DNA of 41,484 nucleotides, taken from Nitrospira sp. (lineage in GTDB: Bacteria > Nitrospirota > Nitrospiria > Nitrospirales > Nitrospiraceae). Below are positions 20,133 to 41,305 of this stretch, one piece after another (the first letter of the stretch is position 1; the number at the start of each line of letters is the position of its first letter). The position numbers and the translations under genes are program-made. The DNA is taken from assembly GCA_013140455.1 (NCBI GenBank), contig JABFSU010000031.1, positions 1 to 41,484 of the forward strand, in the 5' to 3' direction. Below the pieces are notes generated by a model that saw nothing but the letters and a program-made list of their open reading frames with translations, did no database searches and had not been told where the DNA came from.

Positions 20133-20651
20133 CTAGACGCGACCCCGCCAGAAAAACAACCGCGCCCAATAGAATCCGGCCCATGGCAAGAGAATGGCTG
20201 GAACCATTGAGACTTGTCCGGTCGAAATCGCCAGCCAGGATCCGCCAAGCATTACCCCTACACCTAGCATATACGCCATAGGAATTAACGAACGCCCCGG
20301 ATGTGCCAAGGGAGACGGTTCAGGAATTTTCCCTCCCTTCCTGCCCTGCTTGGCCGTGGCCACTCGTATGCGGGCTGCCAGAACCTCTGGAAACGATTGT
20401 AGAAGATAGAAGTGATAGCGAGACTGCGCAAACCCCAACGCCGCGCCCAAGGCAATTAACCCCGTGCTCTGAAGGAATGTCCCCCACGTGTACTGATCGG
20501 TTGCAAAAAGCTGGTACCCCAGTCCAGCAACTCCACCGAGCATACTGACCAAGCCGACCAGCCCTGAAGGAATGAGGATGTATGTCTTAACGTAGTCGTG
20601 CGCGTGTTTCGTAATCTGTTCCGGCCGTTGTACGGTAATCAGTTTGGGCAC
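20133..20651 (-). CDS. Integral membrane protein of unknown function
   Basis: About 172 residues from the GTG at 20651, which has GAGG 5 nt before; a GTG two codons earlier is also possible. Membrane segments lie at about 25-50, 60-80, 118-138 and 143-163, with a basic cytoplasmic loop (RIRVATAKQGRKGGK) between the second and third. I do not recognise the family. It converges on lpxD across the palindromic element and has no operon partner. Confidence 0.7.
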   Translation of the reverse strand: MPKLITVQRPEQITKHAHDYVKTYILIPSGLVGLVSMLGGVAGLGYQLFATDQYTWGTFLQSTGLIALGAALGFAQSRYHFYLLQSFPEVLAARIRVATAKQGRKGGKIPEPSPLAHPGRSLIPMAYMLGVGVMLGGSWLAISTGQVSMVPAILLPWAGFYWARLFFWRGRV

Positions 20652-20657
20652 AATCAC

Positions 20658-21223: not shown

Positions 21224-23299
21224 TCAGGCAGGAAGAATTTCTTCAATGGTCGCTCGCTCAAGACGTCCGAGATTCACCCATTGTTCAGCCATGGGAACCA
21301 GCGTCTTCAGGCGCAGTTCAAGAGCTTCGAGGCGAACGGGTAAAGACGTCACCTTTCGGTAAGCCGTGACCGTCAAGAACGACTTCAACCCTTGGAGAAA
21401 CATCATGATGGTCATCGCCTGAACCAACTTAGCCTGATCATGCAAAAACTCGACATGGCCAAGAATAGGATCAAGCTGAGAGGCCGTGACAAAGCTGGCG
21501 GCCTGCGCCCGAAGCGATGCAAGCGCCTCCGTCATTTGCGGGACACGCGAATGCACGGCCTGAAGAAAGTCATTATCCTGCCGATCCAAATCACGAAGAA
21601 TTCGCTCGATCATAGACACATCGACCGGCTCACCCACTTCTTCGGCACAATGAATCACCGCCTCCAACATGTCCCGTGCCGGTTGCATCGATCTCGATCG
21701 AGCCTTCTGCAGCTCACGCAACGCACTTAATAATGGGAGCGAGGAAAACTCGCGGTTCGGAACGATTTCGGGATGGATGTTATGTGTGGCCGTCTCCTCG
21801 CGTTCGACAGCACCCACCTCCTCCTCACGGACCACAGACACTTCTCCATCAATGAGCGTTCGCTCATCTCCCGCTGCGCTCTGGGAAGGAATGGATGCCA
21901 ACTGCCGAACAGCGGCAATAACTCGACTCAAACCCTGATGCAAATGCCGCAGAGACTCGGAAGCAACGGCAGTTTCTGCCCCGCCGACATCACGAAGGGT
22001 AGGCAGCAAGTTCGTCGCCATGGCCTCAATCTCATCGAGATGCACCGTGGCGGCAGACTTTGCCAGATTCGTGATCCCGTTGAGGACAATCCCGTAGACA
22101 TGCGAGCGAACCGGCCCCTCTTTGTCGGCACTGAGCCGTGCGAGGGCAGATTGAATTTGTGCGAGCCACTCGTGTGCCTCCAGCGCAAATAAACCCACGA
22201 CTTCCTTGTCAAACCCGGCATCGTCCAGGCTCAGCGTCTCTACTGCAGACTCTTGATCAAGGACAACTTCAGACTTCCCCCCATCTACCGCACCAGAGTG
22301 CCGCGCATGCTCCACGACACCTTGAATGGCAGTCGCAATAGCATCCAGACTCTCCAGGAGCGACGTAAACTGATCCGATGCCGCCCCCATCGGCACCGCC
22401 ACGTTTGGAACCTCCGGCGCAAACGTGAGACGCCCGACCACGGGAGCTTTGAGTGCTTCGATAATACTTACCAGCGGCGTCAGACTGAGATCGATATGCC
22501 GACTCTCGACGTGCCCCGCGTCTCCATGTTCATCTATCTCCACGATCGGCCGTAGCGGGTACTGCACATTGACTCCCACGACTGTCCCGGTTTCTCCAGT
22601 TGTCAGGCGAACGGTCGTCCCAAGAGGATACACCGACAGCTGCTCGACCAGCGCTTTGGTCATTTCCCGTGGAAATGTTGCCCGCTCTGCCACCAGCAAC
22701 TCTTTGATCGCCTCATGCGGAAATAGTCTTGGGCGATAGGGACGTTCGCTGATCAAGGCATCAAACACATCGGAGACACCGATGATCAGTGCCATCTCGC
22801 TGATTTGCCGCCCTTTCAATCGATTCGGATAGCCCAACCCATTGGTGCGCTCATGAGCCTGGCGAATCAATTCCGCCAGCCAGGTGTAGTCGGGCCCCGA
22901 CCGCTTGATCGCCTCGTACCCCAGTTCTGGATGTTGTTCGATCAGCGTTCGTTCGTCGGCTGTCAGCCGTCCGGCTTTCGTGAGCAGCGATTGAGGAACG
23001 GCAAATAATCCGATATCGTGTACCAACCCGGCCAGCGCGAGCCGTTCTAATTCGCGCCCATAGTATCCCAATCCCATCCCCACCTTCGTCGCCACGACGG
23101 CCACATTCACGAGATTCGTCAAGAGCGGCGATCCTGATGGACTGGAGAGCGCCATAACGATCAATTCACTGCTGCGCTTCAACGACGCGACCAGCGACGC
23201 CGCTAAGATCTCGAGTCGATCGAGTTGAATGCTCCGTTGACTTTGTATGGCCGAAGCGACAAGAGTCAGCTCGGCTTCTGCGTCCCTATACCATGTCAT
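21224..23299 (-). CDS. Degenerate HD-GYP protein fused to a His-less Hpt-like module
   Basis: 691 residues. An HD-GYP domain, normally a cyclic-di-GMP phosphodiesterase, covers about 40-215. H94-D95 are present (LVHDIGLFAVP), but the usual HDIGK lysine is Leu, and the HHExxDGxGYP motif reads AHERTNGLGYP (148-158), so one metal-binding His is Ala and Asp is Asn. About 220-290 resembles a small beta domain seen after some HD-GYP domains. From about 361 the protein copies the neighbouring Hpt-like protein: FDKEVVGLFALEAHEWLAQIQSAL against FQKELIALFAQEAQEWLQQIHVAL, but Gly replaces the phosphorylatable His. The C-terminal ends (QGLKSFLTV...ATIEEILPA) also match. It is probably a c-di-GMP sensor or scaffold rather than an enzyme. 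Confidence 0.85.
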   Translation of the reverse strand: MTWYRDAEAELTLVASAIQSQRSIQLDRLEILAASLVASLKRSSELIVMALSSPSGSPLLTNLVNVAVVATKVGMGLGYYGRELERLALAGLVHDIGLFAVPQSLLTKAGRLTADERTLIEQHPELGYEAIKRSGPDYTWLAELIRQAHERTNGLGYPNRLKGRQISEMALIIGVSDVFDALISERPYRPRLFPHEAIKELLVAERATFPREMTKALVEQLSVYPLGTTVRLTTGETGTVVGVNVQYPLRPIVEIDEHGDAGHVESRHIDLSLTPLVSIIEALKAPVVGRLTFAPEVPNVAVPMGAASDQFTSLLESLDAIATAIQGVVEHARHSGAVDGGKSEVVLDQESAVETLSLDDAGFDKEVVGLFALEAHEWLAQIQSALARLSADKEGPVRSHVYGIVLNGITNLAKSAATVHLDEIEAMATNLLPTLRDVGGAETAVASESLRHLHQGLSRVIAAVRQLASIPSQSAAGDERTLIDGEVSVVREEEVGAVEREETATHNIHPEIVPNREFSSLPLLSALRELQKARSRSMQPARDMLEAVIHCAEEVGEPVDVSMIERILRDLDRQDNDFLQAVHSRVPQMTEALASLRAQAASFVTASQLDPILGHVEFLHDQAKLVQAMTIMMFLQGLKSFLTVTAYRKVTSLPVRLEALELRLKTLVPMAEQWVNLGRLERATIEEILPA

Positions 23300-23341
23300 G
23301 GAAACTCATTCTCCCCTTCTTCCCAACCTGATCCGACCAGC

Positions 23342-24172
23342 CTAACGTGAATCCACGAGGCGCATAACCAGCGTCGAGTCGATGTGATCAACTTTCTCTT
23401 GCGCTCCGCTGAACAAGCAGAGATCGCAGAGCGCATTAATTAAGCGACAGACGCCGCCTGTGTGTCGATAAATCACTTCCGCTGCATCCATCGTAAAGAG
23501 CCTTCGCGTACGCCCCGCCGCTGCCAATCGGCCTTGAATGTAGGCCTGCGTTTCTTCTACATCAAACCGTTCCAGATGATATCGCACGGCAATCCGTTGC
23601 ATCAGCTGTGGAATACGCGCGATCCGTTCTCGAAGTTCCGGCTGGCCAAGCAACACGAGCGTCAACAGAAACCGATTATTCATCTGATAATTCATCAAGA
23701 GCCGGACCTCGTCAAAGATCCGATCCTCAAGAATCGTTTGAGCCTCGTCAATGACAAGGACCGTATCGACTCCCTGCCTGGCGTTCGACAGCAAGTGCTC
23801 ATTCAGACGCCTCAGCTGTACCGCCTTTGAGCCACCGACCGGCAAACCGAATTGATAGAGAATCTCCCCCAGAAATTGATTTTCAGGAAGCGAGGGGTTT
23901 GCCAGCAAGGCCACATCATACTTCGCCCTCGGCAGATTGAGAATCAGCGCACGGCTCAGAAGAGTCTTCCCGCTTCCAATCTCGCCGGTCAGCATGACGG
24001 CGCCCTTGCGAGCCTGAATCCCATATAAAATCCGCTGCCGGGCCTCCTCATGCTTGACTGAGGGAACATAAAAACGTGGGTCAGGAACATTTTCAAACGG
24101 CTGGGCCTCTAGCCCCCAATGCTGTTCGTACGCGAAAGGCACCGGCTCAGCAATTAGCACATCTGTCTCCAT
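23342..24172 (-). CDS. ExeA-like AAA ATPase
   Basis: 276-residue P-loop ATPase of the ExeA/GspA type. Walker A is GEIGSGKT (63-70), Walker B VLVIDEAQ (138-145), and the C-terminal part shows RTRRLFTMDAAEVIYRHTGGVCRLINALCD, the helical lid typical of this family. The N-terminal HWGLEAQPFENVPDPRFYVPS is the usual ExeA beginning. ExeA with ExeB moves the type II secretin; here the C-terminal peptidoglycan-binding and membrane parts of ExeA are absent. It lies between two genes that share a duplicated Hpt-like module, so it probably works in the chemosensory pathway. Confidence 0.9.
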   Translation of the reverse strand: METDVLIAEPVPFAYEQHWGLEAQPFENVPDPRFYVPSVKHEEARQRILYGIQARKGAVMLTGEIGSGKTLLSRALILNLPRAKYDVALLANPSLPENQFLGEILYQFGLPVGGSKAVQLRRLNEHLLSNARQGVDTVLVIDEAQTILEDRIFDEVRLLMNYQMNNRFLLTLVLLGQPELRERIARIPQLMQRIAVRYHLERFDVEETQAYIQGRLAAAGRTRRLFTMDAAEVIYRHTGGVCRLINALCDLCLFSGAQEKVDHIDSTLVMRLVDSR

Positions 24173-24250
24173 TCCATTTCCGCCTTACGAAGAAATCGGT
24201 TTCAAGGATACTCAGGGAGTGACCCAACCGAGCGGTACTGCGGGCCACCG

Positions 24251-25189
24251 CTATGCAACGGGCAACAAAGCTTCGATGGCTCCTCGCTCACGTCGGCCAG
24301 CCTCTGCCCATTCGTGAATGATCGTGGGCATTGTGCGCAGTCTGCTCTCTATCTTCTTTAACTGAGAAGCCTGGGGGGTCACCCGCTGTTCCATCACAAT
24401 CGTGAGAAAGCTCTGCAGCCCTGTGAAAAACGTCGTGGCTTCAACCGCATTCACCTGTCGAGAAGCCGACCAGAGTTCAGCGGTGTGGTCCACCATTGCG
24501 CTCCACTCGACGGTGGACTCTTGCCATTGGCCTATAGAGGCCTGTGCCATCTTTCCAATGCCGTCGGCCACGAGCAGTCCCAGCCGCTCCACCGTCTGCG
24601 CATACGCACGCTCGACCTCGGCACCTCGCGCTAGAACCTCACGCAACGATGCGGCATCACAATGTGTCACTCCATTTCTCGTCATCCCATCAATCTGAGC
24701 AATAATGGTCTTCGTCACGTGGCCTGATACGGTCGTACTGCCAGCCAGGCGACTAATCAGATCGGAGAGCGCGGCCACGAACTCCGGCACCGGCACCGTG
24801 ACGGCTGCCACCTCTGCTATTGCAGACTCAGCATCAAACGCCACACCGGTCGCCCGAGTCAGCGCATCGTGAATCTGGCCCAGCTGTTTGCAGAGCGCCA
24901 AGAAAGCAGCGGCCGAGAGGGGAACGGACGGATCCTCTACCGCCTCAACCAAGGGAAGGCCAGAAAAACTCGCCTGCTCGACTTCGTGCAGAGTGATCGT
25001 CGCGGCTGACCCGCCAAGATTCGTTAATCCGGCTTTGATCGTGTGGGCTAACTTGAAATGTCGATCAGCCGGAGGACCTTGCTGCAATTCATCGAGCGCC
25101 ACATGAATCTGTTGCAACCACTCCTGCGCTTCTTGAGCAAACAGGGCAATCAACTCTTTTTGAAACTCATCGTCTGTATCGACTGCCAT
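24251..25189 (-). CDS. FimL-like Hpt-domain protein
   Basis: 312 residues. Residues 1-110 resemble an Hpt domain with H49 in LAHTIKAGLTNLGG, the position phosphorylated in CheA; the usual KG after it is KA. The rest is helical (about 120-310) and ends in GLQSFLTIVMEQRVTPQASQ...ERGAIEALLPV. The whole protein is similar to the C-terminal half of the HD-GYP protein two genes downstream. FimL of Pseudomonas is a related type of stand-alone, Hpt-derived protein in the Pil-Chp pathway; that comparison is inference. ATG at 25189. Confidence 0.75.
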   Translation of the reverse strand: MAVDTDDEFQKELIALFAQEAQEWLQQIHVALDELQQGPPADRHFKLAHTIKAGLTNLGGSAATITLHEVEQASFSGLPLVEAVEDPSVPLSAAAFLALCKQLGQIHDALTRATGVAFDAESAIAEVAAVTVPVPEFVAALSDLISRLAGSTTVSGHVTKTIIAQIDGMTRNGVTHCDAASLREVLARGAEVERAYAQTVERLGLLVADGIGKMAQASIGQWQESTVEWSAMVDHTAELWSASRQVNAVEATTFFTGLQSFLTIVMEQRVTPQASQLKKIESRLRTMPTIIHEWAEAGRRERGAIEALLPVA

Positions 25190-25241
25190 GCCACGTCATT
25201 CCTTCGTATCAGCACAGGTCTACGCCTTGAGATCGATCTGT

Positions 25242-26621
25242 TCAGACCCGCCCCTTGCCACTACCGAGTTGAGATGCCAGCCCAGCTATTTCTCCGAGCT
25301 TGCGCGCCATATCTTCAAACCGTCTCATAGATTGCTCAGCAGACTGTTCGGATTCCGACACACGCCGTGCCAGCACGGCGTTCCGATCCCGCTCGGCCGC
25401 CAAGAGCTGTTCGAACTCCTGAGCCGCAGTTACCATCTTTTCCAAGGCTTGGATACGGCTCTCTTTAGCGCTCCCAGCCTGAGTCGCCGCGGCTAATTGG
25501 CTTTCCAGGTCACTCAACCGCTGTACTCCCCGTTCAGCCTCGGCAAGACGTCCGCTCAATTCCCCTACACGAGCCCGTTCCGCCGTCATCGCGTCGTCCA
25601 ACTGCTTCACTTGTTGTTCAAAATCCGTAGCGCGATGCTCTTCACGGGCCAGCCGCGCTTCCAGGTCTTTCGTCCGCACCGCGGCGGCCTCCAAGACGGT
25701 CAATTGTTCTACCAATTTTGCCGTGGCTGCCCGCTCGGTCATCAGGGTAGATTCCAGCTGAGGCATCGCGCTTACCGCTTGTTGGAGATCGGCAATCTGC
25801 TGTCGAAGGCCCTGATTGGAATCCTGTTCAGACTTCAAAGCAGATTCGAGAACCGATGCCTTCGACTGTGCATCGGACAGCAAATCCTCACTGCTGGCAA
25901 TCTGCACTTTCAACGACACAATCTGCTGCCGTTCTTGAGCCAACTCAGCTTCAATTCCCTGCGCCCGACTCGACTGATTGCTGATTTCCTCAACACGGTG
26001 ACGTTCGGCAGCAAGTTGATCTTCCAATTCCTTCGCCTGTGCCGCCAGCACCTCCAGCTCTCCTACTCGCTTCTTGAGCCCTTCAGCCTTGCCCCTCTCG
26101 GCTTGCAGCTGTGCATCGAGCTCATCGGCTTGGGCTGCTGCCTGCTTATAAGTCGCAAGCTGCTCGGCAGTGATTCGAGGACCGTTCCATACGTCACCGG
26201 TGGCAACCGGCTTTGGAGCCAACGCCGCAGGGGAGGGAACGACTGCCGGTTCTTGGCGCTTTGCAAGCAACTCCAGAACCCGGTCCTTGAGCGAGGTTCC
26301 TTGAAACGGTTTCTTAAGGACCCCGTCAGCATGACAAGACTCTGCCTGTTTCGTCACCTCGTCATTCACAATTCCTGAAATCAACAACACCGGCGTTGTG
26401 GCCAGCGAAGCATGCCCCCGCACAAAGGCGCAGACTTCATATCCGCTCTTGTCCGGCATAATCACATCCGACACAATGACGTCCGGCCGTTCCTTCGACA
26501 AATAGGCGAGGGCCTCTTCTCCATTGGCAGCTAAGGTGACGCCCAATCCGGCTTCCGTTAACAACCGCTCCGCCACTTTTCTGACCGCAATACTGTCATC
26601 TGCTACAAGAATCTTCGGCAT
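25242..26621 (-). CDS. Response regulator with a long coiled-coil tail
   Basis: 459 residues from the ATG at 26621 (MPKILVADDSIAVRKVAERLL); an ATG five codons upstream is less likely. A CheY-like receiver spans 1-125 with phospho-acceptor D52 (VIVSDVIMP), conserved T/S at LLISG and Lys in VLKKPF. After a short linker, about 300 residues form a continuous coiled coil (ELDAQLQAERGKAEGLKKRV, LEAELAQERQ..., repeated E-x-x-L-x-x-E heptads). There is no DNA-binding or enzymatic output. The form is typical of receivers that act by oligomerising or by binding a polar scaffold. Confidence 0.88.
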   Translation of the reverse strand: MPKILVADDSIAVRKVAERLLTEAGLGVTLAANGEEALAYLSKERPDVIVSDVIMPDKSGYEVCAFVRGHASLATTPVLLISGIVNDEVTKQAESCHADGVLKKPFQGTSLKDRVLELLAKRQEPAVVPSPAALAPKPVATGDVWNGPRITAEQLATYKQAAAQADELDAQLQAERGKAEGLKKRVGELEVLAAQAKELEDQLAAERHRVEEISNQSSRAQGIEAELAQERQQIVSLKVQIASSEDLLSDAQSKASVLESALKSEQDSNQGLRQQIADLQQAVSAMPQLESTLMTERAATAKLVEQLTVLEAAAVRTKDLEARLAREEHRATDFEQQVKQLDDAMTAERARVGELSGRLAEAERGVQRLSDLESQLAAATQAGSAKESRIQALEKMVTAAQEFEQLLAAERDRNAVLARRVSESEQSAEQSMRRFEDMARKLGEIAGLASQLGSGKGRV

Positions 26622-26657
26622 ACTGACTCCCTTCACCTCTGTTCGTAACCGTCAATC

Positions 26658-27101
26658 TTAGGCAGCCCCTAATCGTGCAGTTGAAATAATGGGGACGTCT
26701 TCAAACTCATCGGTAAAACATCCCACCGTGTCGATATCGTTGTCGCGATAGGCCTGAATCTTCCTGGGATCGAGCGAACGCAACACGGGCATTTCCTCAT
26801 CGATGCAAATCGCTATCGTATCCTCGGCTTGTTTGGCCATCAAACAGAGACGCTGCTCCCCCTTCACCCGAACCTTCAGCATCCCGGCGAGATCAAAAAC
26901 GGGAAACACCGCTTGATCACGACGGATAACCGACGAGATGAACGGCGTACAGCTGGGAATCGGAATACTGCCAACCCAGGCAGAAATCCCGCCGATCTCT
27001 TCAGTCTTCACCGCGAGTCGGCGTCCCCCTACCGAGAAGACTAACAGATGACATAGCTGAGAAGTGACCTGCCGTTGCCGGCCAACCGCACCCCTTAGCA
27101 T
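26658..27101 (-). CDS. Divergent CheW-like adaptor
   Basis: 147 residues with a CheW-type fold: LLVFSVGGRRLAVKTEEIGGISAW, then FISSVIRRDQAVFPVFDLAGML and a C-terminal strand with IAICIDEEMPVLRSL. The usual RG motif (GxxNLRG) is changed to SVIRRDQ. It overlaps the preceding CheW-like gene by 7 nt. It probably joins receptor and kinase or replaces CheW in an array, as PilI and its relatives do. Confidence 0.78.
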   Translation of the reverse strand: MLRGAVGRQRQVTSQLCHLLVFSVGGRRLAVKTEEIGGISAWVGSIPIPSCTPFISSVIRRDQAVFPVFDLAGMLKVRVKGEQRLCLMAKQAEDTIAICIDEEMPVLRSLDPRKIQAYRDNDIDTVGCFTDEFEDVPIISTARLGAA

Positions 27102-27595
27102 GCAATGCTCTTTCTCATTCTATCGGACCTGTCTGAAAGGCTCAGTGGCAACCGTCTGTTTAGGCTCAGTAACCACATTGAGTGAAGGCCCACCGCTACT
27201 CCTTCTCCATATAAAATAAGGCCTACGTACCAGTTCCGTTCTTCACTGCGGAATTGACGTGGCAACGGCAATACGCTCGTCCGTTCGACTTCGACCAGGC
27301 CATGAATCTGATCCACCCGGATGCAGGCACGAATCCCTGCCTGCGCCAAGAGCACCATGCGTGTTTCCGGCCCGTCGCCAACTTGAGCAAGCCCAAGCCG
27401 ATCCCTAAGATCCAGGGAAGGATACTCCAGACCTTGAACCATGAGGGTATTGACGAAGCCACCCTCTTCCATCGTCAGCAAGCCTTGCACTAAGTCTGCT
27501 GACAAAGCGAATTGCTGGGAATCTATTCCTATAATCAGAAAGCGTTCAATCGGCACATGAGGGGCCGACCCGATCCGATGGCCTCGCAAACTCAT
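27095..27595 (-). CDS. Divergent CheW-like protein
   Basis: 166 residues with CheW features: FLIIGIDSQQFALSADLVQGLL, LMVQGLEYPSLDLRDRLGL, VLLAQAGIRACIRVDQIHGLVEV. The GxxNLRG motif is replaced by MVQGLEY. It sits between the CheA-like kinase and a second CheW-like gene, overlapping the latter by 7 nt, so the two are coupled and possibly a duplication that diverged. Function as adaptor is inferred. Confidence 0.75.
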   Translation of the reverse strand: MSLRGHRIGSAPHVPIERFLIIGIDSQQFALSADLVQGLLTMEEGGFVNTLMVQGLEYPSLDLRDRLGLAQVGDGPETRMVLLAQAGIRACIRVDQIHGLVEVERTSVLPLPRQFRSEERNWYVGLILYGEGVAVGLHSMWLLSLNRRLPLSLSDRSDRMRKSIAC

Positions 27596-27664
27596 ACCAG
27601 CGCCTCATCGATCATGTGCCTTCGGTTCTGCATGTCATCCTATCGCGGACCTGTGCCGATGGCT

Positions 27665-30600
27665 TTACTTCCGAGCCCCTGACACCTGCCCGACCCATCG
27701 TTCGACCTCTTGAAGCAATGCGCGTTCTTCCACGGGCTTAGCGATATATGAACTAGCCCCGATGTTCAGAGCCATCTGACGATGCTTATCCCCTGCCCGT
27801 GTCGTCATCACGACAACAGGGGTTTGCTGTGTCTGCGGGCGACTGCGCAATGCTTGGATGACTTCCAATCCATTCAACTTCGGCATTTCCAGGTCCGTGA
27901 AAATCAGCCGGTAGGAATGCGCCGAAGCTTTCCGCAATCCATCCTCGCCATCCACTGCTGTGTCGACTTGATAACCTGCGTTCTCCAACATGCGCCCGAC
28001 AAATTTCCGAATGCTCAGCGAGTCGTCGATCAAGAGAATTGACGCCATCGTAGATGCTTGAGCATCCATACCATGCCCCGAGTCCTGATGAGGCGCCAAT
28101 GCTATTTCAGGGGCCGCCAACATCGCGGCCGACTCCCGAGACTCCCGCGCAAGCAATCGTCCCGTATCCACCACAAGCACCACATGCCCCTCAGGATCGA
28201 TCGTGGCGCCGCCGAAACAGGACTGCTCCATTGAGCGTAACGTACCCAATGATTTGATGACGATTTCTTGACGCCCCAATAACTCATCGACAGCCAATCC
28301 GATCGGCCCAGAGACAGTGCGCACCACGACTACCGGCATCGAGATATCCACCATCCCACTTTCACGCCTGAGCAAATGACGAAGCGAGTAGAGATCGATC
28401 GCCTCTTCGCCCATCTGTAAGATGGCCCGCTCCCCCATGTGCTGCAACGAGCCCACTGTCGGCATGGTGACCTCGCGCACATTGGGTAGTGGAATTGCGT
28501 ACCGTTCCGATCCCACTCGCACCATCAACGCGGTGGCAATAAGCAGCGTCAGAGGCAAATCCAACGTAAATTTGGTGCCCACGCCGGGAAGCGACTCAAC
28601 ATCGATATGACCGTTCATTCCTTCAATCACCCGCTTGACCACATCGAGTCCGACGCCTCTCCCAGCCTGGTCGCCCACCTTCTCTGCGGTAGAAAATCCT
28701 GGAGCAAAAATGTATTTCAGCGCTTCAGCATCCGGCATTGCCTGAATCTGCTCTGGCCGAGCCAGCCCAAGATTGACGGCTTTTGTCCGAATCCGCTTGA
28801 GGTCGAGACCCGCCCCGTCGTCTTCCACCTCGATGATGATCGAGTTGCCTCGATGAGCGGCATGCAAGTAGACAGTGCCGCCCGCGGGCTTCCCTTTCGC
28901 CACACGAGCCCCAGCCGGTTCAATGCCGTGATACACGGCATTGCGCACGAGATGGACCAGCGGATCCACCAAGCGCTCTACGATTCCAGTATCCACCTCG
29001 GTATGTTCACCGGACGTCACCAACGACACTTCTTTCCCTGAGGCGCGGGCAATCTCTCGAATCGCTCGGCGGAACCGTGTAAACGGAGTCCCGATGGGAA
29101 CCATGCGGGCCCGCGCAATTTCATCCCGCATGCCGAGGGTGAGCTGCTGTAATTGGCTCATATCATCATGTGACCGGCGAATTGATCCGCTCAGTTGAGA
29201 CATAGATTCAGTAATATCAGCGGTCACTTCACTGATACGTCTCGCCAAAATATTGAAATCGTCATACTTATCAAACTCCAGACTGCCGAAATCGCTCAGC
29301 CCCACCACACCGGCTGTTGCCGTATCCGTGGAAGTCGAAGGAGCATTCGGAAATGTGAAGGTGTGTTTCTCTTCAAACGATTGCACGGCATCGACCAACC
29401 GGGACTTGCAGGCCAAGACCTGTTGAGACAGTTGTTCTAACACACGGAGACGCTGTTCTAACCGGCCTCGTCCAATGACCAATTCACCGACCAGGTTGAG
29501 CAATCGTTCTAATCGATCCCGGCTGACTCGAATTACTTCACGATCTTCTGCAGACCGGCCATCGGCAATCTTGGTTTGCGCCGCTTCTTCCTTGGGTTCA
29601 GCCGACGAGCGCATGAGAGGTGCCGCTACATCGGCTGCGACAACTGTCTCCACACTTGGGACACCACCTTCATGCAGGATCTTCAACTCAACCATGGCGG
29701 AGGTAAATCGTTGCTGAGTCGTCGCCAGGGTCGCGGGGTCACGACGCATGAGCACGCGAACGACATCGACGGATCGAAGCAACAAATCTGTCTGACCCGG
29801 CTGCACGGCCAAGTGCCCGTCACGCACGGCTCCCATGAAGTCTTCAATGTGATGAACCAGATCGCCGATGGATTGAAACCCGACGGTATACGCAGACCCC
29901 TTGAGCGTATGGGCAGTCCGGAACAATTGATTGATCAATTCGTCGTCCTGAACATTCTTATCCAACCGCAGGAGATTGGCCTCCAGAGTCTCCAAATACT
30001 CCTGGGCCTCCGGGGCAAAATAAGACAGCACCTCGGGATCCAGTTGTGGAATCAAATACTCAGCCGATAGCACGGGACTCACCGCCACATCACCATCGAC
30101 TGTTGACGCAACTGAAGGCTGTATCTCTACATGAGCTATAGGAATAGATGACGCAGCAGCCGCAATCGCCTCACCATCCCGCAACTGTTTTAGGAAACCA
30201 ATCACAGCCGGCACATCATGCTGTAATTGCGGCACATGGGTAGGATCTCGACGCAACGCGAGCCGAATAATACCAACCGCTCGAGTCAACCCCTCGAAGA
30301 GGGCATCACTCAGTTCAACCCGGCACTCACGAACTTTCCCCATACATTCTTCCATAGGGTAGGCAATATCGCCGATGACGGTAAAGCCAACAGTATGGCC
30401 GGAGCCTTTCAGCGTATGAGCCGTCCGAAAGAGTCGATGGATCGCATCATCGTCGTGTGGGTGAGCCTGCAAACTCCGAATCAGACTATCAATCGTATCC
30501 AGGTATTCCAATGCCTCAGGAACAAAGTACGACAACACTTCCGCATCCACATTTGGGACAAGATAATCCTGACTCAATTGTGTGCCAGCTCCAACACCCG

Positions 30601-31036
30601 GTACACCTTCATCATCTACAGAGGCCGCCGGACCTGTTGTTTCAGCGGGGAGAAACCCATCAGAAACGGCCAGGCATCGATCGATCGTCACCTGATCTTC
30701 ACCTCCACCTTGTCCAATCACATCTAGCTGAAGCTGGACTCCCTGCACAATTTCCCGCATCGCACCAACAGCGCGAAGCCAGTCCGCCTCCGGGATCATA
30801 TGACTCTGCTCAAACAAGGACTCCAGCCGTTCGCTCAATTGTGCAATGCCGGCAAATCCATAGAGTGCCGCAGCTCCCCGAACCCGGTGTGCCACAATAA
30901 ATTGCTCATGCAATTGCTGCGGACTTGGAACGGACCCATCGGCGGGATGTAAGGCGAGTTTGAGCTCGGCCATGCCATCGACGGCCTCGGCCACAAAAAT
31001 AGCCATAAGATTGTCCGGATCGAATTCGGCGCTCAT
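27665..31036 (-). CDS. cheA: ChpA-like hybrid CheA kinase with three Hpt domains and a receiver
   Basis: 1123 residues, the central kinase of the chemosensory system. Hpt1 is at about 1-105 (H50 in VAHRVRGAA; K changed to R), Hpt2 at 155-265 (H207, AHTLKGSG) and Hpt3 at 325-435 (H376, AHTLKGSA). Then come the dimerisation segment (about 500-690), kinase core with N box N699 (LVRNAVYHG), G1 (EDDGAGLDL) and G2 (GRGVGLDVV), a CheW-like domain (about 830-965), and a C-terminal receiver (995-1120) with D1048. All catalytic motifs look intact. Several Hpt domains and a fused receiver are typical of ChpA in twitching-motility systems rather than flagellar CheA. There is no P2 domain. Confidence 0.96.
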   Translation of the reverse strand: MSAEFDPDNLMAIFVAEAVDGMAELKLALHPADGSVPSPQQLHEQFIVAHRVRGAAALYGFAGIAQLSERLESLFEQSHMIPEADWLRAVGAMREIVQGVQLQLDVIGQGGGEDQVTIDRCLAVSDGFLPAETTGPAASVDDEGVPGVGAGTQLSQDYLVPNVDAEVLSYFVPEALEYLDTIDSLIRSLQAHPHDDDAIHRLFRTAHTLKGSGHTVGFTVIGDIAYPMEECMGKVRECRVELSDALFEGLTRAVGIIRLALRRDPTHVPQLQHDVPAVIGFLKQLRDGEAIAAAASSIPIAHVEIQPSVASTVDGDVAVSPVLSAEYLIPQLDPEVLSYFAPEAQEYLETLEANLLRLDKNVQDDELINQLFRTAHTLKGSAYTVGFQSIGDLVHHIEDFMGAVRDGHLAVQPGQTDLLLRSVDVVRVLMRRDPATLATTQQRFTSAMVELKILHEGGVPSVETVVAADVAAPLMRSSAEPKEEAAQTKIADGRSAEDREVIRVSRDRLERLLNLVGELVIGRGRLEQRLRVLEQLSQQVLACKSRLVDAVQSFEEKHTFTFPNAPSTSTDTATAGVVGLSDFGSLEFDKYDDFNILARRISEVTADITESMSQLSGSIRRSHDDMSQLQQLTLGMRDEIARARMVPIGTPFTRFRRAIREIARASGKEVSLVTSGEHTEVDTGIVERLVDPLVHLVRNAVYHGIEPAGARVAKGKPAGGTVYLHAAHRGNSIIIEVEDDGAGLDLKRIRTKAVNLGLARPEQIQAMPDAEALKYIFAPGFSTAEKVGDQAGRGVGLDVVKRVIEGMNGHIDVESLPGVGTKFTLDLPLTLLIATALMVRVGSERYAIPLPNVREVTMPTVGSLQHMGERAILQMGEEAIDLYSLRHLLRRESGMVDISMPVVVVRTVSGPIGLAVDELLGRQEIVIKSLGTLRSMEQSCFGGATIDPEGHVVLVVDTGRLLARESRESAAMLAAPEIALAPHQDSGHGMDAQASTMASILLIDDSLSIRKFVGRMLENAGYQVDTAVDGEDGLRKASAHSYRLIFTDLEMPKLNGLEVIQALRSRPQTQQTPVVVMTTRAGDKHRQMALNIGASSYIAKPVEERALLQEVERWVGQVSGARK

Positions 31037-31086
31037 CCTGGTCCCTTCTCACCCGGAAGATGACAGACATCCCCCGGGTAATCTCA

Positions 31087-32973
31087 TTACACCAGTTTGA
31101 ATTGCGACACAGAGGCCGTCAGCGTTTCAGCGAGCTTCGCCATATCTTCTACGGTAACACGTGCGGAATCGGTGGCTTTCTGCGTGGCCACCGCGCCGCC
31201 GGTGAAGTCCTTAATCGAACGTCCCACCTTGTCGGTCGAAGCGGTCTGTTCAACCGCAGATGACGCGATGCTTTGCGCCAGCTCAGATGAACGCTGGGCG
31301 ATCGTAGAAATTTCTTTGAACACATCACCCGTACGCAACGCAGAAGCCGAGCCCGCTTCCACGGCCTGGGTTTCATGTTCCATCGCGACCACCGCATCCT
31401 GCGTTTCGCTTTGGATTACTTTCACGAGGTCCGCAATTTCTCGTGTTGCCTGCGTGGAGCTTTCCGCGAGCTTTCTCACCTGATCGGCGACGACCGCGAA
31501 TCGGGCGCCCGCCTCTCCGGCGCCGGCGGCTTCGATGGCCGCGTTCAAGGCCAACAGGTTGGTCTGATTGGCAATATCTCGAATCGTCGAAACGATTTGA
31601 GATATTTCCAAGGACCGATCACCAAGGGCTTTCACCTGCTTCGACATACGTTGCACCGCAGCACGGATACTCTGCATGTCCTGCACGGTTTCTTGGACCG
31701 CCACACGACCGCGCTCGGTCGCTTGCAACACTTGGCGGGCGGATTCAGAAGATGCACCGGCTGTTTCAGCCACCTGACGCATTGACGCCGCCAACTGTTC
31801 AACCGCGCCCAGCGTCTTGACAGATTCGTCGGCTTGATGCTTTGCCGTACCAGACATCTGACCGGCGTTGTCTCTCAACGTCCCGGCTGACTTATTCACG
31901 CGTTCAGCCGCTTCACGCACTTGACGCATCAGCTGGGCAAACCGCTGAATCATGAGATTGAATCCGTCGGCCAAGTTTCCGAACATATCCGCTGTGACTT
32001 CTCCGCGCTTCGTCAAATCTCCTTTACCGACGTCAGATACCAAGACGAGAAATTGCATCAAGCGTTTTTGCATGACGTCTCGCTCTTCTTCGGTGGACAC
32101 AAGAGCCGTAATACGATCCAACATTGAGTTGAACGCTTTCGCCATGTGGCCCACCTCGTCGTCGCTCTCAAGCTTCGCGCGAGCCTGGAGGTTACCCGCA
32201 GCGGCTTGTTCGGCGACATCGGCCACATGCACAATGTTCCGAGCAATATACCGAGCCAGGTAGTATCCGATGGCGCCTCCGAAGATGAGTGCGATGAGGC
32301 CTCCGAACAGCACCCAGTTCGTACTACGCGACGCTTCGGCCTGCCCGCTTTCGTTCAATTCTTTGGCCAATTCTCGAATCGTGGTCATCAACTCTCGTAC
32401 ACGCAGAGTTGCCGTGCTGTACTTGTTTGCAACTTCGACTGAGAGAGACAAGTTACCTAGATCTCGCATGCTCTGCTTCTGATCTTCGGAAAGTGACGCG
32501 GAGTAACTATCAGCAAACGCACTGACCGCACCGTCAGTCGACACAAAATATTCGGCCAACGCGGTTTTCAGCGCAGCGATATCCTTTGCTTCGTTTCGTC
32601 CCGTCCCCGATTCTCGCAATTCCGACCCCTGATAGGCCTGCAATGGTTCCAATGTCTGATTTTTGAGGGCCGCCAGCGGTGCGATGGCATCGTCAAAGTC
32701 ACTCTTTCGAGTCTGACGACCGGCATTCAACAGCGCGTCGTGGTACAGCCCAAGGTTCGTACTGCTGACTCCGGTGTTAGACAACGCGACCGTTGATCCG
32801 TCATAAATATTCTGCAACTCAGTCTTTAACCGGCTCAAACCGATAAGACCTACGAGACCGACCATGATCATGATGACGCCGACGGCAGAGAATCCGAGAA
32901 TCAACTTCGGCAGTGTTTTGAGATTATGGAACCACGTCTGAATCGTCCACGCTGACTTGCTGTGCCTCGCCAT
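31087..32973 (-). CDS. PilJ-like methyl-accepting chemotaxis protein
   Basis: 628-residue membrane receptor. TM1 is about 24-46, the periplasmic helical sensor about 47-218, TM2 about 220-241 and a HAMP domain about 240-292. A second HAMP-like segment at about 308-350 ([30 protein letters not shown]) resembles PilJ. The signalling tip is at about 455-505 ([21 protein letters not shown]). The C-terminus ([13 protein letters not shown]) lacks a CheR-tethering pentapeptide, and no cheR or cheB gene is in the operon. The ligand is not known; the heme protein three genes upstream is a possible partner. Confidence 0.95.
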
Positions 32974-33079
32974 AACTTCCTCCTCCTCAACCCTTAGGAT
33001 AATCGGTTCCTATCGTCGTCGCGCCGCTTCCCTGAGCGGCGGTCAGCCAACTCAGCGGACAGACTCACGTGTCGGTCAT

Positions 33080-33577
33080 TTAATTCAACACACCTTCCAC
33101 ACAGGCCAAGAGCTTCTGCACGTCCATCATGCCGCTCATGCGTTCTTCAATCTTGGCCAGTCCTGAAAGGAATGGCCGTGACTCCGATAATCCTCTCGAC
33201 GTCGCGTTCAGCAGATCATCGGGATGGATCGTGCGGATTTCCGGCACCGCGTCGATCAGAATGCCGACCTGCTGCTGACCATGACGAACGACCACTACGA
33301 AAGGCAGTGATGTGGCCGACGGAATCCCGAGCGACGGACGTAAGTCCGCTAACGGCATGACCGTTCCCCGAAGATTGGCCACCCCCACTAATGTGGACGA
33401 CATCCCAGGAACGGGTGTCACGGATTCCAGCTCGAAGACTTCCCGAACATGACGAAGATCGATCGCAAACAGTTCTCCCCCGAGAGTCACGAGGCAGATA
33501 CGCGACGGAATGGGTGTTTTGACACCTTCCGCCAGGGCAACCCCGACAGATTGAGATGTGCTGAGAGCTGGTTCCAT
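33080..33577 (-). CDS. cheW: CheW adaptor
   Basis: 165 residues with a canonical CheW fold: ICLVTLGGELFAIDLRHVREVFEL, PGMSSTLVGVANLRGTVMPLADLR (the GxxNLRG motif is intact) and VGILIDAVPEIRTI. It couples the receptor to the CheA-like kinase. It lies between the receiver gene and the receptor gene in the operon and, unlike the two CheW-like proteins after cheA, has the normal receptor-contact motif. Confidence 0.93.
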   Translation of the reverse strand: MEPALSTSQSVGVALAEGVKTPIPSRICLVTLGGELFAIDLRHVREVFELESVTPVPGMSSTLVGVANLRGTVMPLADLRPSLGIPSATSLPFVVVVRHGQQQVGILIDAVPEIRTIHPDDLLNATSRGLSESRPFLSGLAKIEERMSGMMDVQKLLACVEGVLN

Positions 33578-33617
33578 GATCTCCCTTCAACAACCAGGTT
33601 CGGTGTCTTATGGAAGC

Positions 33618-33980
33618 CTAGTTCAACGCTCGCTTCACGGCAGCTAAGAGATCCTCCGCCTTAAACGGCTTCACCACATATCCATTGGCGCCCTGCTGTT
33701 GTCCCCAGAACTTGTCGCTCTCCTGCCCCTTTGAGGTACAGAGCACGACGGGAATGTTCTTAAAGCGATCATCGGCTTTCAAATCGCGACAGGCCTGGAA
33801 GCCATTCCGTCCCGGCATAACCACGTCCATCACAATGAGATCAGGCTTTTCAGAGACGATCTTATCTTCCAGCTTGTCCGTATTCGGGAATGACACCACG
33901 GTGTGGCTGGCCGCCTTGAGATACCCCTCGATCATCTGCAACTCAGCGTACGAATCATCGACGACTACGATCTTGCTCAT
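33618..33980 (-). CDS. PilH/CheY-like response regulator
   Basis: 120-residue single-domain receiver. Acidic pocket VVVDDS, phospho-acceptor D52 in LIVMDVVMPGRNG, conserved Thr in VLCTSKGQ and Lys in YVVKPF. The insertion GQESDKFWGQQQGANGYVVKP is typical of PilH/PilG receivers of twitching-motility systems. It should be a phosphorylation target of the ChpA-like kinase and could act on type IV pilus motors or serve as a phosphate sink. No pil genes are in the window. Confidence 0.93.
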   Translation of the reverse strand: MSKIVVVDDSYAELQMIEGYLKAASHTVVSFPNTDKLEDKIVSEKPDLIVMDVVMPGRNGFQACRDLKADDRFKNIPVVLCTSKGQESDKFWGQQQGANGYVVKPFKAEDLLAAVKRALN

Positions 33981-34019
33981 AATGCTCGTCCTCCAGCTCG
34001 AATAGTTGAATCATGACAC

Positions 34020-34754
34020 CTATCGCATCGGCACAACGACGCTGATTGCGCCGGCCAGGTCTCCCTCTTTCCATCCTTCTTTTTTCGTTCCGGTAATATC
34101 CCGTTCCCCTTTCGGTCCCCCATGGCAGGTGAGACACGTCGGACCGGCATATTCCGGATCCATGACACGCATGACCGGCTTGCCTCCAACCATCGTTGCC
34201 TTCGCATATTGCTGTCCCTTCGGATGGCGGGAATCGGCAAACATGCGCAACACTTCCGATTCAAAATCATCGGGCTTGTTGCCAGGGAAGCGATAATCCG
34301 TTCCCGTCAACTTCAATCGAATGCCTGTTTTCTTGTAAAACTTTTCACCGGACTTTCGAGCGAATACAGCAGGAATAAATCCTTTGAAGGCGACGCCCTG
34401 CTTGTTGATTACCGGCTGCCCCTCCAACACCACTTCACGTTCCGCTTCGAGCAACGCCAGAAGGACGCCGCTTTGCGGGACTCCATTCGGACGACTCAGA
34501 TCGACACGCGTCTTCGCTTTGAATTTCTCAATGACCTGATGCGCCACGAATTCATCCGTGAATCCCTTATTACCTTTGCTGGGATCGTTAATCAGGGCTT
34601 GATGTTCCGACACCACTGCGCGGCCTGATTTCAGTAATGCAATCAGCAATTCTGCCGTTTCGCTCTCATCGCCGGCGCGAACAAGCGATGGCACCCCCAT
34701 CACTGTCGCACACACCGTCACACCAAGAATGAGTGATGTTAACTGTGCCTTCAT
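34020..34754 (-). CDS. Periplasmic heme protein of the Tll0287/DUF3365 type
   Basis: 244 residues with a signal peptide (about 1-27, cleavage near VRAGD). The mature part is a Tll0287-like sensor domain (AELLIALLKSGRAVVSEHQAL, TGIRLKLT, MFADSRHPKG) with one heme c motif CLTCH at 207-211, followed by GGPKGERD, and ends in DLAGAISVVVPM. Such domains usually sit in the periplasmic part of kinases or GGDEF proteins; here it stands alone as the first gene of the chemosensory operon. GGAGGGGACCCT precedes the ATG. It may sense redox state, nitric oxide or a small ligand and pass this to the PilJ-like receptor. Confidence 0.88.
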   Translation of the reverse strand: MKAQLTSLILGVTVCATVMGVPSLVRAGDESETAELLIALLKSGRAVVSEHQALINDPSKGNKGFTDEFVAHQVIEKFKAKTRVDLSRPNGVPQSGVLLALLEAEREVVLEGQPVINKQGVAFKGFIPAVFARKSGEKFYKKTGIRLKLTGTDYRFPGNKPDDFESEVLRMFADSRHPKGQQYAKATMVGGKPVMRVMDPEYAGPTCLTCHGGPKGERDITGTKKEGWKEGDLAGAISVVVPMR

Positions 34755-35154
34755 AGGGTCCCCTCCTCCTTCAAGACTGGCTCGTCTAGTGGTTCACGCC
34801 CAAGTGTAGTCGCTTGCTCTCCATTCGCAAGAATTCGATGAAAATCGGCAACCCCTTCATTCACTGCGGCTTCGCACAAGCTGGACGACACGGACGCGCG
34901 GAGACCGCAACCGAGAACAACATCAGAGGAATGGCAACTATTGTGCCGGGATGAGCGAGAGACGATCAGGAAAGACGTTGGAAAGGAGAATGTGCTCAAA
35001 TGCTGCCATATCTGCACGAATTGTGAGCGACGCAGACAGAAGGGTACCCTCGCCGAAGATTGCTGATGTCCGCGCACGGTTGTGCATCAAGTGACAATTC
35101 TTGTTACTACATGTCATGGATATCGCGAACGGCTGGAGATAACAGACGTGCGCG
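34755..35154. other. Intergenic region upstream of the chemosensory operon
   Basis: About 400 bases between the operon start and the end of cobQ. It should hold the chemosensory promoter, but no consensus sigma-70 or sigma-28 site stands out. Minus-strand frames here (34751-35077, 34938-35354) lack recognisable sequence. No cobQ terminator hairpin was found. Confidence 0.4.
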
Positions 35155-36693
35155 TTAGAGACGAGTGGAGGCCGCCTGGATAAGCGGCATACCTTTGAGA
35201 TGCAGCTGCAGATGATCCGCCCACGCATCCAACTGACTGCCGAGCGATTGAGAAATACTCTGCGAGACTGCATCAGACAAAGGCGGGAGAGCCTTTCGGG
35301 CACGGATTCGGTTAATCCATGCCCGCCGGAATTCAGGAAGGTCGAATACGCCATGAAGGTAGGTGCCCCAAATCAAGCCGGTTTCGTTCACGGCTCCATC
35401 GAACTCCTCATTTTTCTCTACCCCAGACTGCCCGGCCTCACCGCTGATCGGGCGGACATGAAAGCAGCATCGTGCGCCACATGGAGTCGTCTGCCCCATA
35501 TGAATCCAATACCCCCGAATGGGCAGACCACGCTGAGGGTCGATGGCTAGGGCCTCCCCCTCGACCCATTGTGTCCTCTTGATTGTCGCAAGCCGTGTCG
35601 TGACAGCCAGCAACCCAAACCCTTCAACCTCACCCCCAGCTTCCACTCCATCAGGATCCGCAATGCTCCGACCCAGCATCTGATACCCGCCACAGATGCC
35701 AACGACCTCAGCCCCGTCACTCGCATGGCGATCAATAGACTCCGCCATCCCGGACTGACGGATGTACGCAAGATCGTCGATCGTGTTCTTACTCCCGGGA
35801 ATGACAATCACATCCGCACCAATAAGATCTGCGGACGTCGTGGCATAGCGAATCACCACATCAGGCTCTGCGATCAGCGGATTGAAATCGGTAAAGTTGC
35901 TCATACGAGGTAACAACACCACTGCGATATTGACTCGATCCTTGACAAATACGGCATGGCGATGGCGCTCGATGTCAACAGCATCTTCCTGATCCAGCAT
36001 CAGACCACGCAACATGGGCACGACCCCTAGAACGGGAAGGCCGGTACGTTGCTCGATAAACTGCACGCCATCGTCAAATAAAGTCGCATCGCCACGAAAC
36101 TTATTAATAATGACGCCGATCACCCGCGCGCGCTCGTGGGAAGCGAGCAGATCCAATGTCCCAATGACCTGCGCGAATACACCGCCTCGATCAATGTCCG
36201 CCACCAGGACGACTCGCGCATCGGCCAGTTCGACAGCCGACCAATTTGCCAGATCGCGATCCCTCAAATTCATTTCGGCGGCGCTCCCGGCGCCCTCAAT
36301 GATCATCACATCATACTGACCGGCCAGTCGCTCGTAACTCTCCCGCACGCGCTCAGCCAGTTCCGCCCGCTGCTCAAAATAGGTTCTGGCTTCCGCCTTG
36401 CCCCACACCTTTCCTTGCACAACAATCTGCGCGCAGCGATCCGATTCCGGCTTCATTAATATCGGGTTCATATCGGCATCAGGATCAAGACCACAGGCCT
36501 GCGCCTGCAACGCCTGAGCACGCCCGATTTCTTTCCCGTCCGGCGTCACGAATGAATTATTCGACATGTTCTGCGCTTTAAATGGTGCCACCTTGATCCC
36601 GGCTCGGTGAAAAAGCCGGCATAGCCCCGCCGTGATCAGACTCTTCCCGACATCCGATCCCGTTCCAAGCACAGCAAGTGCGCGCGCGTTCAT
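35155..36693 (-). CDS. cobQ: Cobyric acid synthase CobQ/CbiP
   Basis: 512 residues from the ATG at 36693, which overlaps the cbiZ stop by 4 nt; upstream starts at 36711 and 36744 lie inside cbiZ. CobQ amidates side chains b, d, e and g of adenosylcobyrinic acid a,c-diamide using glutamine and ATP. The N-terminal ATP-binding domain has GTGSDVGKS (10-18) and IIEGAGSAAEMNLRDRD. The glutamine amidotransferase domain has C334 in VGICGGYQML and His in TYLHGVFD. It is the last gene of the cob operon. Confidence 0.96.
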   Translation of the reverse strand: MNARALAVLGTGSDVGKSLITAGLCRLFHRAGIKVAPFKAQNMSNNSFVTPDGKEIGRAQALQAQACGLDPDADMNPILMKPESDRCAQIVVQGKVWGKAEARTYFEQRAELAERVRESYERLAGQYDVMIIEGAGSAAEMNLRDRDLANWSAVELADARVVLVADIDRGGVFAQVIGTLDLLASHERARVIGVIINKFRGDATLFDDGVQFIEQRTGLPVLGVVPMLRGLMLDQEDAVDIERHRHAVFVKDRVNIAVVLLPRMSNFTDFNPLIAEPDVVIRYATTSADLIGADVIVIPGSKNTIDDLAYIRQSGMAESIDRHASDGAEVVGICGGYQMLGRSIADPDGVEAGGEVEGFGLLAVTTRLATIKRTQWVEGEALAIDPQRGLPIRGYWIHMGQTTPCGARCCFHVRPISGEAGQSGVEKNEEFDGAVNETGLIWGTYLHGVFDLPEFRRAWINRIRARKALPPLSDAVSQSISQSLGSQLDAWADHLQLHLKGMPLIQAASTRL

Positions 36694-40232: not shown

Positions 40233-40237
40233 GGGAC

Positions 40238-41290: not shown

Positions 41291-41305
41291 TCCCATTCTC
41301 CCTCT

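Follow-up and report, generated by a model that had tools for sequence, protein, structure and literature searches.

A Pil-Chp-like chemosensory operon of Nitrospira with an ExeA-type ATPase gene that tends to be kept or lost with a distant Wza/Wzc exporter

Introduction

The Pil-Chp chemosensory system of Pseudomonas aeruginosa has a PilJ-like receptor, CheW, a multi-Hpt hybrid kinase with a receiver, a PilH-like receiver and a FimL-like protein, and the same parts are encoded in an operon of eleven co-directional genes on the minus strand (34754 to 21224) of a Nitrospira sp. contig. The contig (C75, 41,484 bases, from a draft genome of 3.79 Mb in 143 contigs) was analysed as a whole and is referred to here as the window. 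The P. aeruginosa kinase has eight phosphotransfer-type domains, whereas the Nitrospira kinase has three Hpt domains; furthermore, PilK and ChpB have no counterpart in the operon, which in turn encodes a heme-c protein, an ExeA-type ATPase and an HD-GYP/Hpt fusion in addition. The placement of an ATPase beside a degenerate cyclic di-GMP (c-di-GMP) domain protein recalls PilB with FimX, as described in the accessible part of PMC12632253.

The nearest functional precedent is Dif-EpsW-EpsZ of Myxococcus xanthus, a case of chemosensory control of Wzx/Wzy-dependent exopolysaccharide (EPS) (accessible part of PMC12802240), although the link to EPS reported here is evolutionary and runs through the ExeA-type ATPase. 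The best NCBIfam match of this ATPase is the XrtA/PEP-CTERM-associated ATPase (TIGR03015), at 219.8 bits and thus under the curated family cut-off of 324.5. The TIGR03015 family is known from EPS clusters. In Wsp, another chemosensory system, the last component is the active diguanylate cyclase WspR. The Nitrospira operon has no GGDEF protein and in this differs from Wsp, with which it shares, as far as the Wsp description at hand extends, the character of a chemosensory operon linked to c-di-GMP and biofilm. A literature search on Nitrospira/Nitrospirae, with a coverage that excludes most subscription journals, found, among the papers listed and as judged by title or opening of the abstract, none that describes this operon or assigns it a function. 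Genes for chemotaxis, type IV pili and EPS are all named in one Nitrospira paper, whose accessible part draws no connection between them (PMC12542776), and the portion of PMC8250860 at hand holds nothing on an ExeA-HD-GYP pair.

ExeA retention depends on a distant Wza/Wzc exporter

In the window's genome the EPS operon lies on contig C31 and comprises GlmM-like, ComEC-like, HD-GYP', Wza, Wzc, polymerase/ligase-like, glycosyltransferase and flippase-like genes (matches to the sister-genus operon confirm ComEC, HD-GYP', Wza and Wzc, and the other names are read off translations), with no ExeA between ComEC and HD-GYP'. ExeA and Wza were searched in the same family sample of 147 genomes which, like the genomes compared throughout, are mostly drafts with trait scores taken from sequence searches. 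A match of E < 1e-70 in any operon was taken as ExeA present and either type of Wza as Wza present, while the decayed ExeA copies of G021, G038 and G159 were counted as absent. The two genes agree in 138 of the 147 genomes, 57 having both and 81 neither; six carry ExeA only (G054, G013, G007, G067, G086 and G136) and three Wza only (G062, G142 and G078). Within the genus (51 genomes) both are present in 22 and neither in 26, with three genomes having ExeA only and none Wza only.

On an 89-tip tree a dependent two-trait model was preferred over the independent one, with a likelihood-ratio test (LRT) value of 51.8 (4 degrees of freedom, p 1.5e-10) and a fitted ExeA loss rate of 21.2 without Wza and 0.42 with it. 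This tree was built from six genes of the chemosensory locus itself; for a tree of LpxD, which flanks the locus (79 tips), the LRT was 48.3. Twelve of the 100 mapped loci were excluded, five with Wza not scored (G001, G002, G008, G017 and G048) and seven with PilJ/ChpA matches too short in the stretch (G019, G061, G068, G070, G076, G088 and G093). G052 was scored Wza-present on a same-class Wza match together with Wzc at 76%, and scoring it Wza-less instead gave an LRT of 46.4 (p 2.0e-9); G014 was scored Wza-less on a single search that returned no match. For the control pairs heme-Wza, long HD-Wza, ExeA-heme and ExeA-long HD the LRT values were 5.4, 2.5, 7.0 and 5.4, respectively (p 0.13-0.65).

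The same dependence is seen at the level of clades, since 16 of the 18 maximal Wza-less clades have exactly the members of an ExeA-less clade. The two mismatched ones are {G007, G038, G054, G159}, where ExeA is broken in two members, and G013, and the ExeA-less clades that are not Wza-less are {G062, G074}, G078, G126 and {G038, G159}. Among 62 genomes, Wzc is at least 60% identical over its length in all 27 that have Wza, and the 35 Wza-less genomes hold distant Wzc matches only (E 2.9e-37 or weaker). The fitted two-trait model suggests that the exporter is lost first and that ExeA would then decay.

Organization and conservation of the operon

The eleven genes are listed below in the direction of transcription.

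34020–34754, minus strand: Tll0287-like heme-c protein with a CxxCH motif (PF11845, 87 bits; N-terminus signal-peptide-like by eye)
33618–33980, minus strand: PilH-like single-domain receiver (PF00072)
33080–33577, minus strand: CheW adaptor W1, or CheW1 (PF01584, 112 bits)
31087–32973, minus strand: PilJ-like chemoreceptor with 4HB, HAMP and methyl-accepting chemotaxis protein (MCP) signal domains (Pfam)
27665–31036, minus strand: ChpA-like hybrid kinase with three Hpt, H-kinase_dim, HATPase_c, CheW and receiver domains (Pfam)
27095–27595, minus strand: divergent CheW-like protein W2 (PF01584, 36.5 bits)
26658–27101, minus strand: divergent CheW-like protein W3 (PF01584, 33 bits)
25242–26636, minus strand: receiver (PF00072, residues 9-120) with a long coiled coil (by eye)
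24251–25189, minus strand: FimL-like protein with an Hpt/CheA-P1-like fold and a helical C-terminal domain (Pfam Hpt, 20.3 bits with a cut-off of 24.6; structure model)
23342–24172, minus strand: ExeA-type AAA ATPase with Walker motifs (PF13401, AAA_22, 76.9 bits; TIGR03015)
21224–23299, minus strand: altered N-terminal HD-GYP domain followed by an Hpt/FimL-like C-terminal half (HD_5, PF13487; PmGH alignment; FimL-like profile)

Starting at the heme gene and moving towards HD-GYP, the intergenic distances are 39, 40, 106, 50, 69, -7, 21, 52, 78 and 42 nucleotides (nt). A sequence-only reading of the window had proposed these eleven genes, which recur in the loci of 88 relatives, as a Pil-Chp-like operon with gaps of about 40-110 nt or overlaps; this holds for most of them (-7 to 106 nt), one gap being 21 nt. 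Pfam places MCP, CheW and a CheA-type hybrid kinase with several Hpt domains in the operon, in line with the proposed type of system, and supports the heme, ExeA and altered HD-GYP proteins as its extra parts. The absence of CheR and CheB was also described correctly, as neither domain was found by Pfam among the eleven proteins and both CheR matches of the genome lie on another contig, C53 (for CheB no genome-wide search was made). A scan for promoters and terminators stayed at or below chance, with 8 promoter-like sites (7.4 expected) and 8 terminator-like sites (12.7 expected).

Gene order is conserved across Nitrospiraceae. The 88 relatives' loci were found through a FimL-like or ExeA match and kept only with long PilJ and ChpA matches, so that the counts for PilJ, ChpA and the FimL-like gene (88 each) are not independent of the selection. 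CheW1 is found in 85 loci, the two weak CheW genes in 84 each, the coiled-coil receiver in 83, PilH and HD-GYP in 81 each, the heme protein (over half its length) in 55 and intact ExeA in 41, some of the absences being an artefact of sequence stretches that end early. Within the genus, 54 of 59 genomes carry the FimL-like gene. A profile search of 295 genomes sampled across the phylum recovered it in 81, of which 73 belong to the family. A contig scan returned four close loci, all from Nitrospira or Nitrospiraceae, and no relative of the coiled-coil receiver was found in viral contigs.

The heme protein is dispensable, some of the heme-less loci being whole stretches. Its CxxCH motif is kept in 49/49 relatives with >200 aligned residues, and a search against PDB sequences gave no match at E <= 1. 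Co-evolution of the heme protein with the PilJ sensor was considered and discarded, as no general rule holds across loci: most heme-less loci of the genus share a PilJ sensor domain that has diverged (47-51% identical to that of the window), the exceptions showing 64% (L103 and L104) or 40-41% (L105-L107), and in heme-bearing sister-genus loci the identity is 31-65%.

Origin of the ExeA-HD-GYP cassette

Among the 41 intact ExeA proteins of relatives, Walker A is conserved in all and the DEA motif in 40. By a scripted adjacency rule both the FimL-like and the HD-GYP genes flank ExeA in 38 of these 41 loci, while the other three fall short on a single flank (by 20 nt in one case). The sequence-only reading had listed ExeA and the HD-GYP protein among the parts of the chemosensory operon and had named their occurrence apart from it in relatives as evidence to the contrary. 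The pair does sit inside the operon in the genus and in several sister genera, and it is also found, quite literally, apart. In eight sister-genus loci (L114, L115, L117, L120, L123, L127, L128 and L129) it directly precedes a Wza-like lipoprotein and a Wzc-like kinase, in EPS stretches from which the chemosensory operon is absent, weak receiver or kinase matches in L115 and L120 being >9 kb away. Three of the EPS loci, L114 among them, were read gene by gene, and in each the ExeA frame overlaps that of HD-GYP. Several sister-genus chemosensory operons are devoid of the pair, so that the two genes are not inherent parts of the system.

Four genomes with the EPS pair (G068, G070, G076 and G088) carry a chemosensory operon with the FimL-like gene elsewhere, without the cassette, and G061, G062 and G074 likewise have the operon with the FimL-like gene and no cassette. 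None was seen in the sister-family locus G378, where the contig stops 771 bases past the FimL-like gene. In a 48-row ExeA tree all 32 chemosensory ExeA proteins form one clade (96/99), and the HD-GYP proteins (32 rows) fall into chemosensory (86/82), EPS-with-ExeA (100/100) and EPS-without-ExeA (95/89) groups. The cassette is of common ancestry, and its simplest history would be one capture into the chemosensory operon, a direction drawn from the existence of ExeA-less operons rather than from a rooted reconciliation. A history in which the complete operon arrived together with the cassette was rejected, because several sister-genus operons lack the latter.

Two further ExeA genes, L127:9464-10261 and L118:10696-11478, belong to longer open frames (516 and 506 amino acids (aa)), the former lying between GlmM-like and ComEC-like genes. 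They group beside the chemosensory clade with weak support (80/80, 82/65), and these two copies may be nearer the donor of the cassette. The window's genome holds a second ExeA paralog, 34% identical, on contig C90, with weak matches to Wza and Wzc nearby.

The altered HD site and the FimL-like modules

The closest solved relative of the HD-GYP protein by sequence is PmGH (4mcw, E 1.3e-18), with which it shares the HD and GYP motifs and several ligands; it differs in the replacement of two metal His residues and the Lys of HDxGK, and in the added Hpt/FimL-like half. In 52 sequences from both chemosensory and EPS loci, the equivalents of the HD pair, H277, GYP and D305 are invariant and that of H250 is kept in 51. 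The H189 equivalent is Asn in 51 and Ser in one. No sequence keeps the H276 equivalent or the Lys of HDxGK: in all 52 the former is replaced by Ala, Glu or Val and the latter by Leu, Met or Ile. The full metal-ligand set and Lys expected of an HD-GYP phosphodiesterase are therefore lacking. In PmGH (HD pair 221/222, Lys 225) activity was essentially lost with H189A and with H276A, and the effect of K225A was similar, according to the accessible part of PMC4159591. The altered site, common to the chemosensory and EPS copies, appears old and uniform rather than a product of random decay, and we infer that the domain is probably non-hydrolysing, with a binding or scaffold role. The degeneracy noticed in the sequence-only reading extends to every copy compared, and what had been overlooked there is the FimL-like C-terminal half.

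This half matches the FimL-like profile at E 2.0e-34 in the window's genome, and its Hpt-like part is without the His, as read from the translation. Sixteen full-length sequences, the window's included, align across both halves, and many members of the genus keep the HD part only (~340-380 aa). In G089, a single draft genome, the ExeA, HD-GYP and Hpt/FimL-like parts share one open frame. The structure model of the HD-GYP protein, with a mean predicted local distance difference test (pLDDT) score of 65.5, is usable for domain order only.

The FimL-like protein, so named by architecture and not by comparison with the P. aeruginosa FimL sequence, was modeled with a mean pLDDT of 87.3. Its residues 8-116 superpose on CheA P1 (1tqg) with a Z score of 14.4 and a root-mean-square deviation of 2.3 over 105 aligned residues, but unrelated designed helical bundles score as high, and the assignment of a CheA-P1-like fold therefore leans also on the weak Pfam match. 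CheA P1 was the sole match among PDB sequences (E 0.3-0.37). Among 89 sequences, 10 have His and 34 have Gln at the phospho-accepting position (His49), so that the protein, proposed earlier as a FimL-like Hpt protein, would keep the fold and probably act in most cases as a scaffold rather than in phosphotransfer. P. aeruginosa FimL contributes to keeping PilG at the pole and shares N-terminal homology with ChpA (accessible part of PMC10519157).

Discussion

A possible link to type IV pili comes from PilT, which is over the cut-off in 56 of 60 genomes, the window's included. The FimL-like gene is present in 53 of these 56 (not in G066, G077 and G134) and in none of the four without PilT (G046, where a partial match with stops is seen, G063, G104 and G117; Fisher p 7e-5), a co-occurrence that is suggestive only because those four genomes are small (1.7-2.0 Mb). 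The expectation of an output beyond twitching, raised because no pilus genes lie in the window, keeps its first part, as the output is probably not twitching alone, while PilT is encoded elsewhere in the genome.

We favour, at about even odds (probability roughly 0.5), a Chp-type system that is probably tied to type IV pili and also encodes an ATPase for Wza/Wzc-type EPS export. An older Nitrospiraceae operon with the heme-c protein, PilH, CheW, PilJ, ChpA, the two weak CheW proteins, the coiled-coil receiver and the FimL-like protein would have acquired an ExeA/altered-HD-GYP cassette of the type seen in EPS export operons, and a copy of the neighbouring Hpt/FimL-like module, carried by HD-GYP in many lineages, could dock the latter to the chemosensory complex. 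PilJ, aided by a heme-c protein that may sense redox or a ligand, would control ChpA, from which phosphate would pass to PilH and the coiled-coil receiver, with the FimL-like proteins as scaffolds holding the complex. The HD-GYP/Hpt fusion would tether ExeA, ExeA would act on the Wza/Wzc exporter, and the system would bring EPS export in line with pilus activity or contact with a surface. Since ExeA tends to vanish with the exporter, the sensor may help to control slime export or surface attachment. Only tentatively do we propose that ExeA, the probably inactive HD-GYP domain and the Hpt/FimL-like half make up a new chemosensory output unit, in which the receptor array would gate an ATPase that drives or assembles Wza/Wzc and the dead c-di-GMP domain would be the coupling scaffold.

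Several observations weigh against this reading. ExeA and Wza disagree in 9 of the 147 genomes, and G126 keeps Wza with a frame-shifted ExeA (counted as present in the 147-genome table and as absent in the tree and clade tests). The fitted model also permits regain of Wza (rate 8.5 with ExeA present), which leaves the order of loss uncertain. HD-GYP remains in the operon after the loss of Wza and ExeA, and therefore only ExeA tracks the exporter. The single-frame fusion occurs in one draft genome only, control of EPS by the kinase pathway is a step that we infer, and the small size of the PilT-less genomes bears on the pilus link.

If ExeA serves EPS export but is merely parked in the operon, with shared transcription as the sole link, the kinase pathway would control pili alone. 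This alternative, which we hold doubtful, accounts for ExeA tracking Wza when the long HD-GYP and heme genes do not, and for the joint occurrence of PilT and the FimL-like gene; the FimL-like half on the HD-GYP partner of ExeA in many lineages, together with the single chain of G089, suggests physical coupling instead. The name-giving ExeA acts in type II secretion, and six secretin matches and PilT genes in the window's genome, along with the FimL-like gene going with PilT, would fit an ExeA acting on the type IV pilus or another secretin in an operon that serves pili as a whole. This is improbable, however, in view of the loss of ExeA with Wza/Wzc in genomes that keep PilT, such as G003, G016, G024, G041 and G042. 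Least likely of all is an active c-di-GMP phosphodiesterase through which the operon would act mainly by lowering c-di-GMP. The invariant HD pair, H277, GYP and D305 equivalents speak for it, as does RpfG, also without two PmGH ligands and discussed as probably binuclear in the accessible part of PMC4159591, but the uniform replacement of H189, H276 and the Lys, at positions where the PmGH mutants were essentially inactive or similar, stands against it.

The comparison of genomes marks out ExeA as the one operon gene with a fate that follows an EPS exporter 61-272 kb away, this being the distance from the FimL-like gene to Wza in the 12 genomes with both on one contig. A vague non-twitching output becomes a testable hypothesis, namely that the sensing of surfaces or redox state is coupled to polysaccharide export and that the exporter has an ExeA-type ATPase as its partner. 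Flocs and biofilms are the habitat of Nitrospira, which are major nitrite oxidisers and comammox bacteria. To our knowledge no mechanism has been assigned to the ExeA-type ATPases of EPS clusters, on which the cassette offers a handle.

Neighbouring genes and variant loci

A protein of 174 aa is encoded 566 nt downstream of the HD-GYP gene (20133–20657, minus strand), a conserved neighbour overlooked in the sequence-only reading. It is present in 80 of the 88 loci, also beside operons without ExeA and HD-GYP, and gave no Pfam family over the cut-off and no NCBIfam match; it is a possible further member of the operon.

Six loci of the same genus (L105-L109 and L188) hold a short diverged operon in the same place, with PilJ 33-47% identical and a smaller ChpA; PilH, the weak CheW pair, ExeA and HD-GYP were not found in these operons. 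In genome G019 (L093 and L167) the coiled-coil receiver gene is apparently split by ~15 kb with a tetratricopeptide repeat (TPR) gene, so that FimL/ExeA/HD-GYP are separated from ChpA, although this may be a misassembly. A TPR protein is also encoded near the operon in the window (12263–14260, minus strand), with no ExeA after its gene there. In five sister-genus loci (L150-L154) a TPR gene is followed by a second ExeA-type gene, 33-36% identical and on a separate, well supported branch. Upstream of the operon the window carries cobalamin genes (CobQ, CbiZ, CobD-like and others; 34751–41296, minus strand) and downstream LpxD, both as in many relatives.

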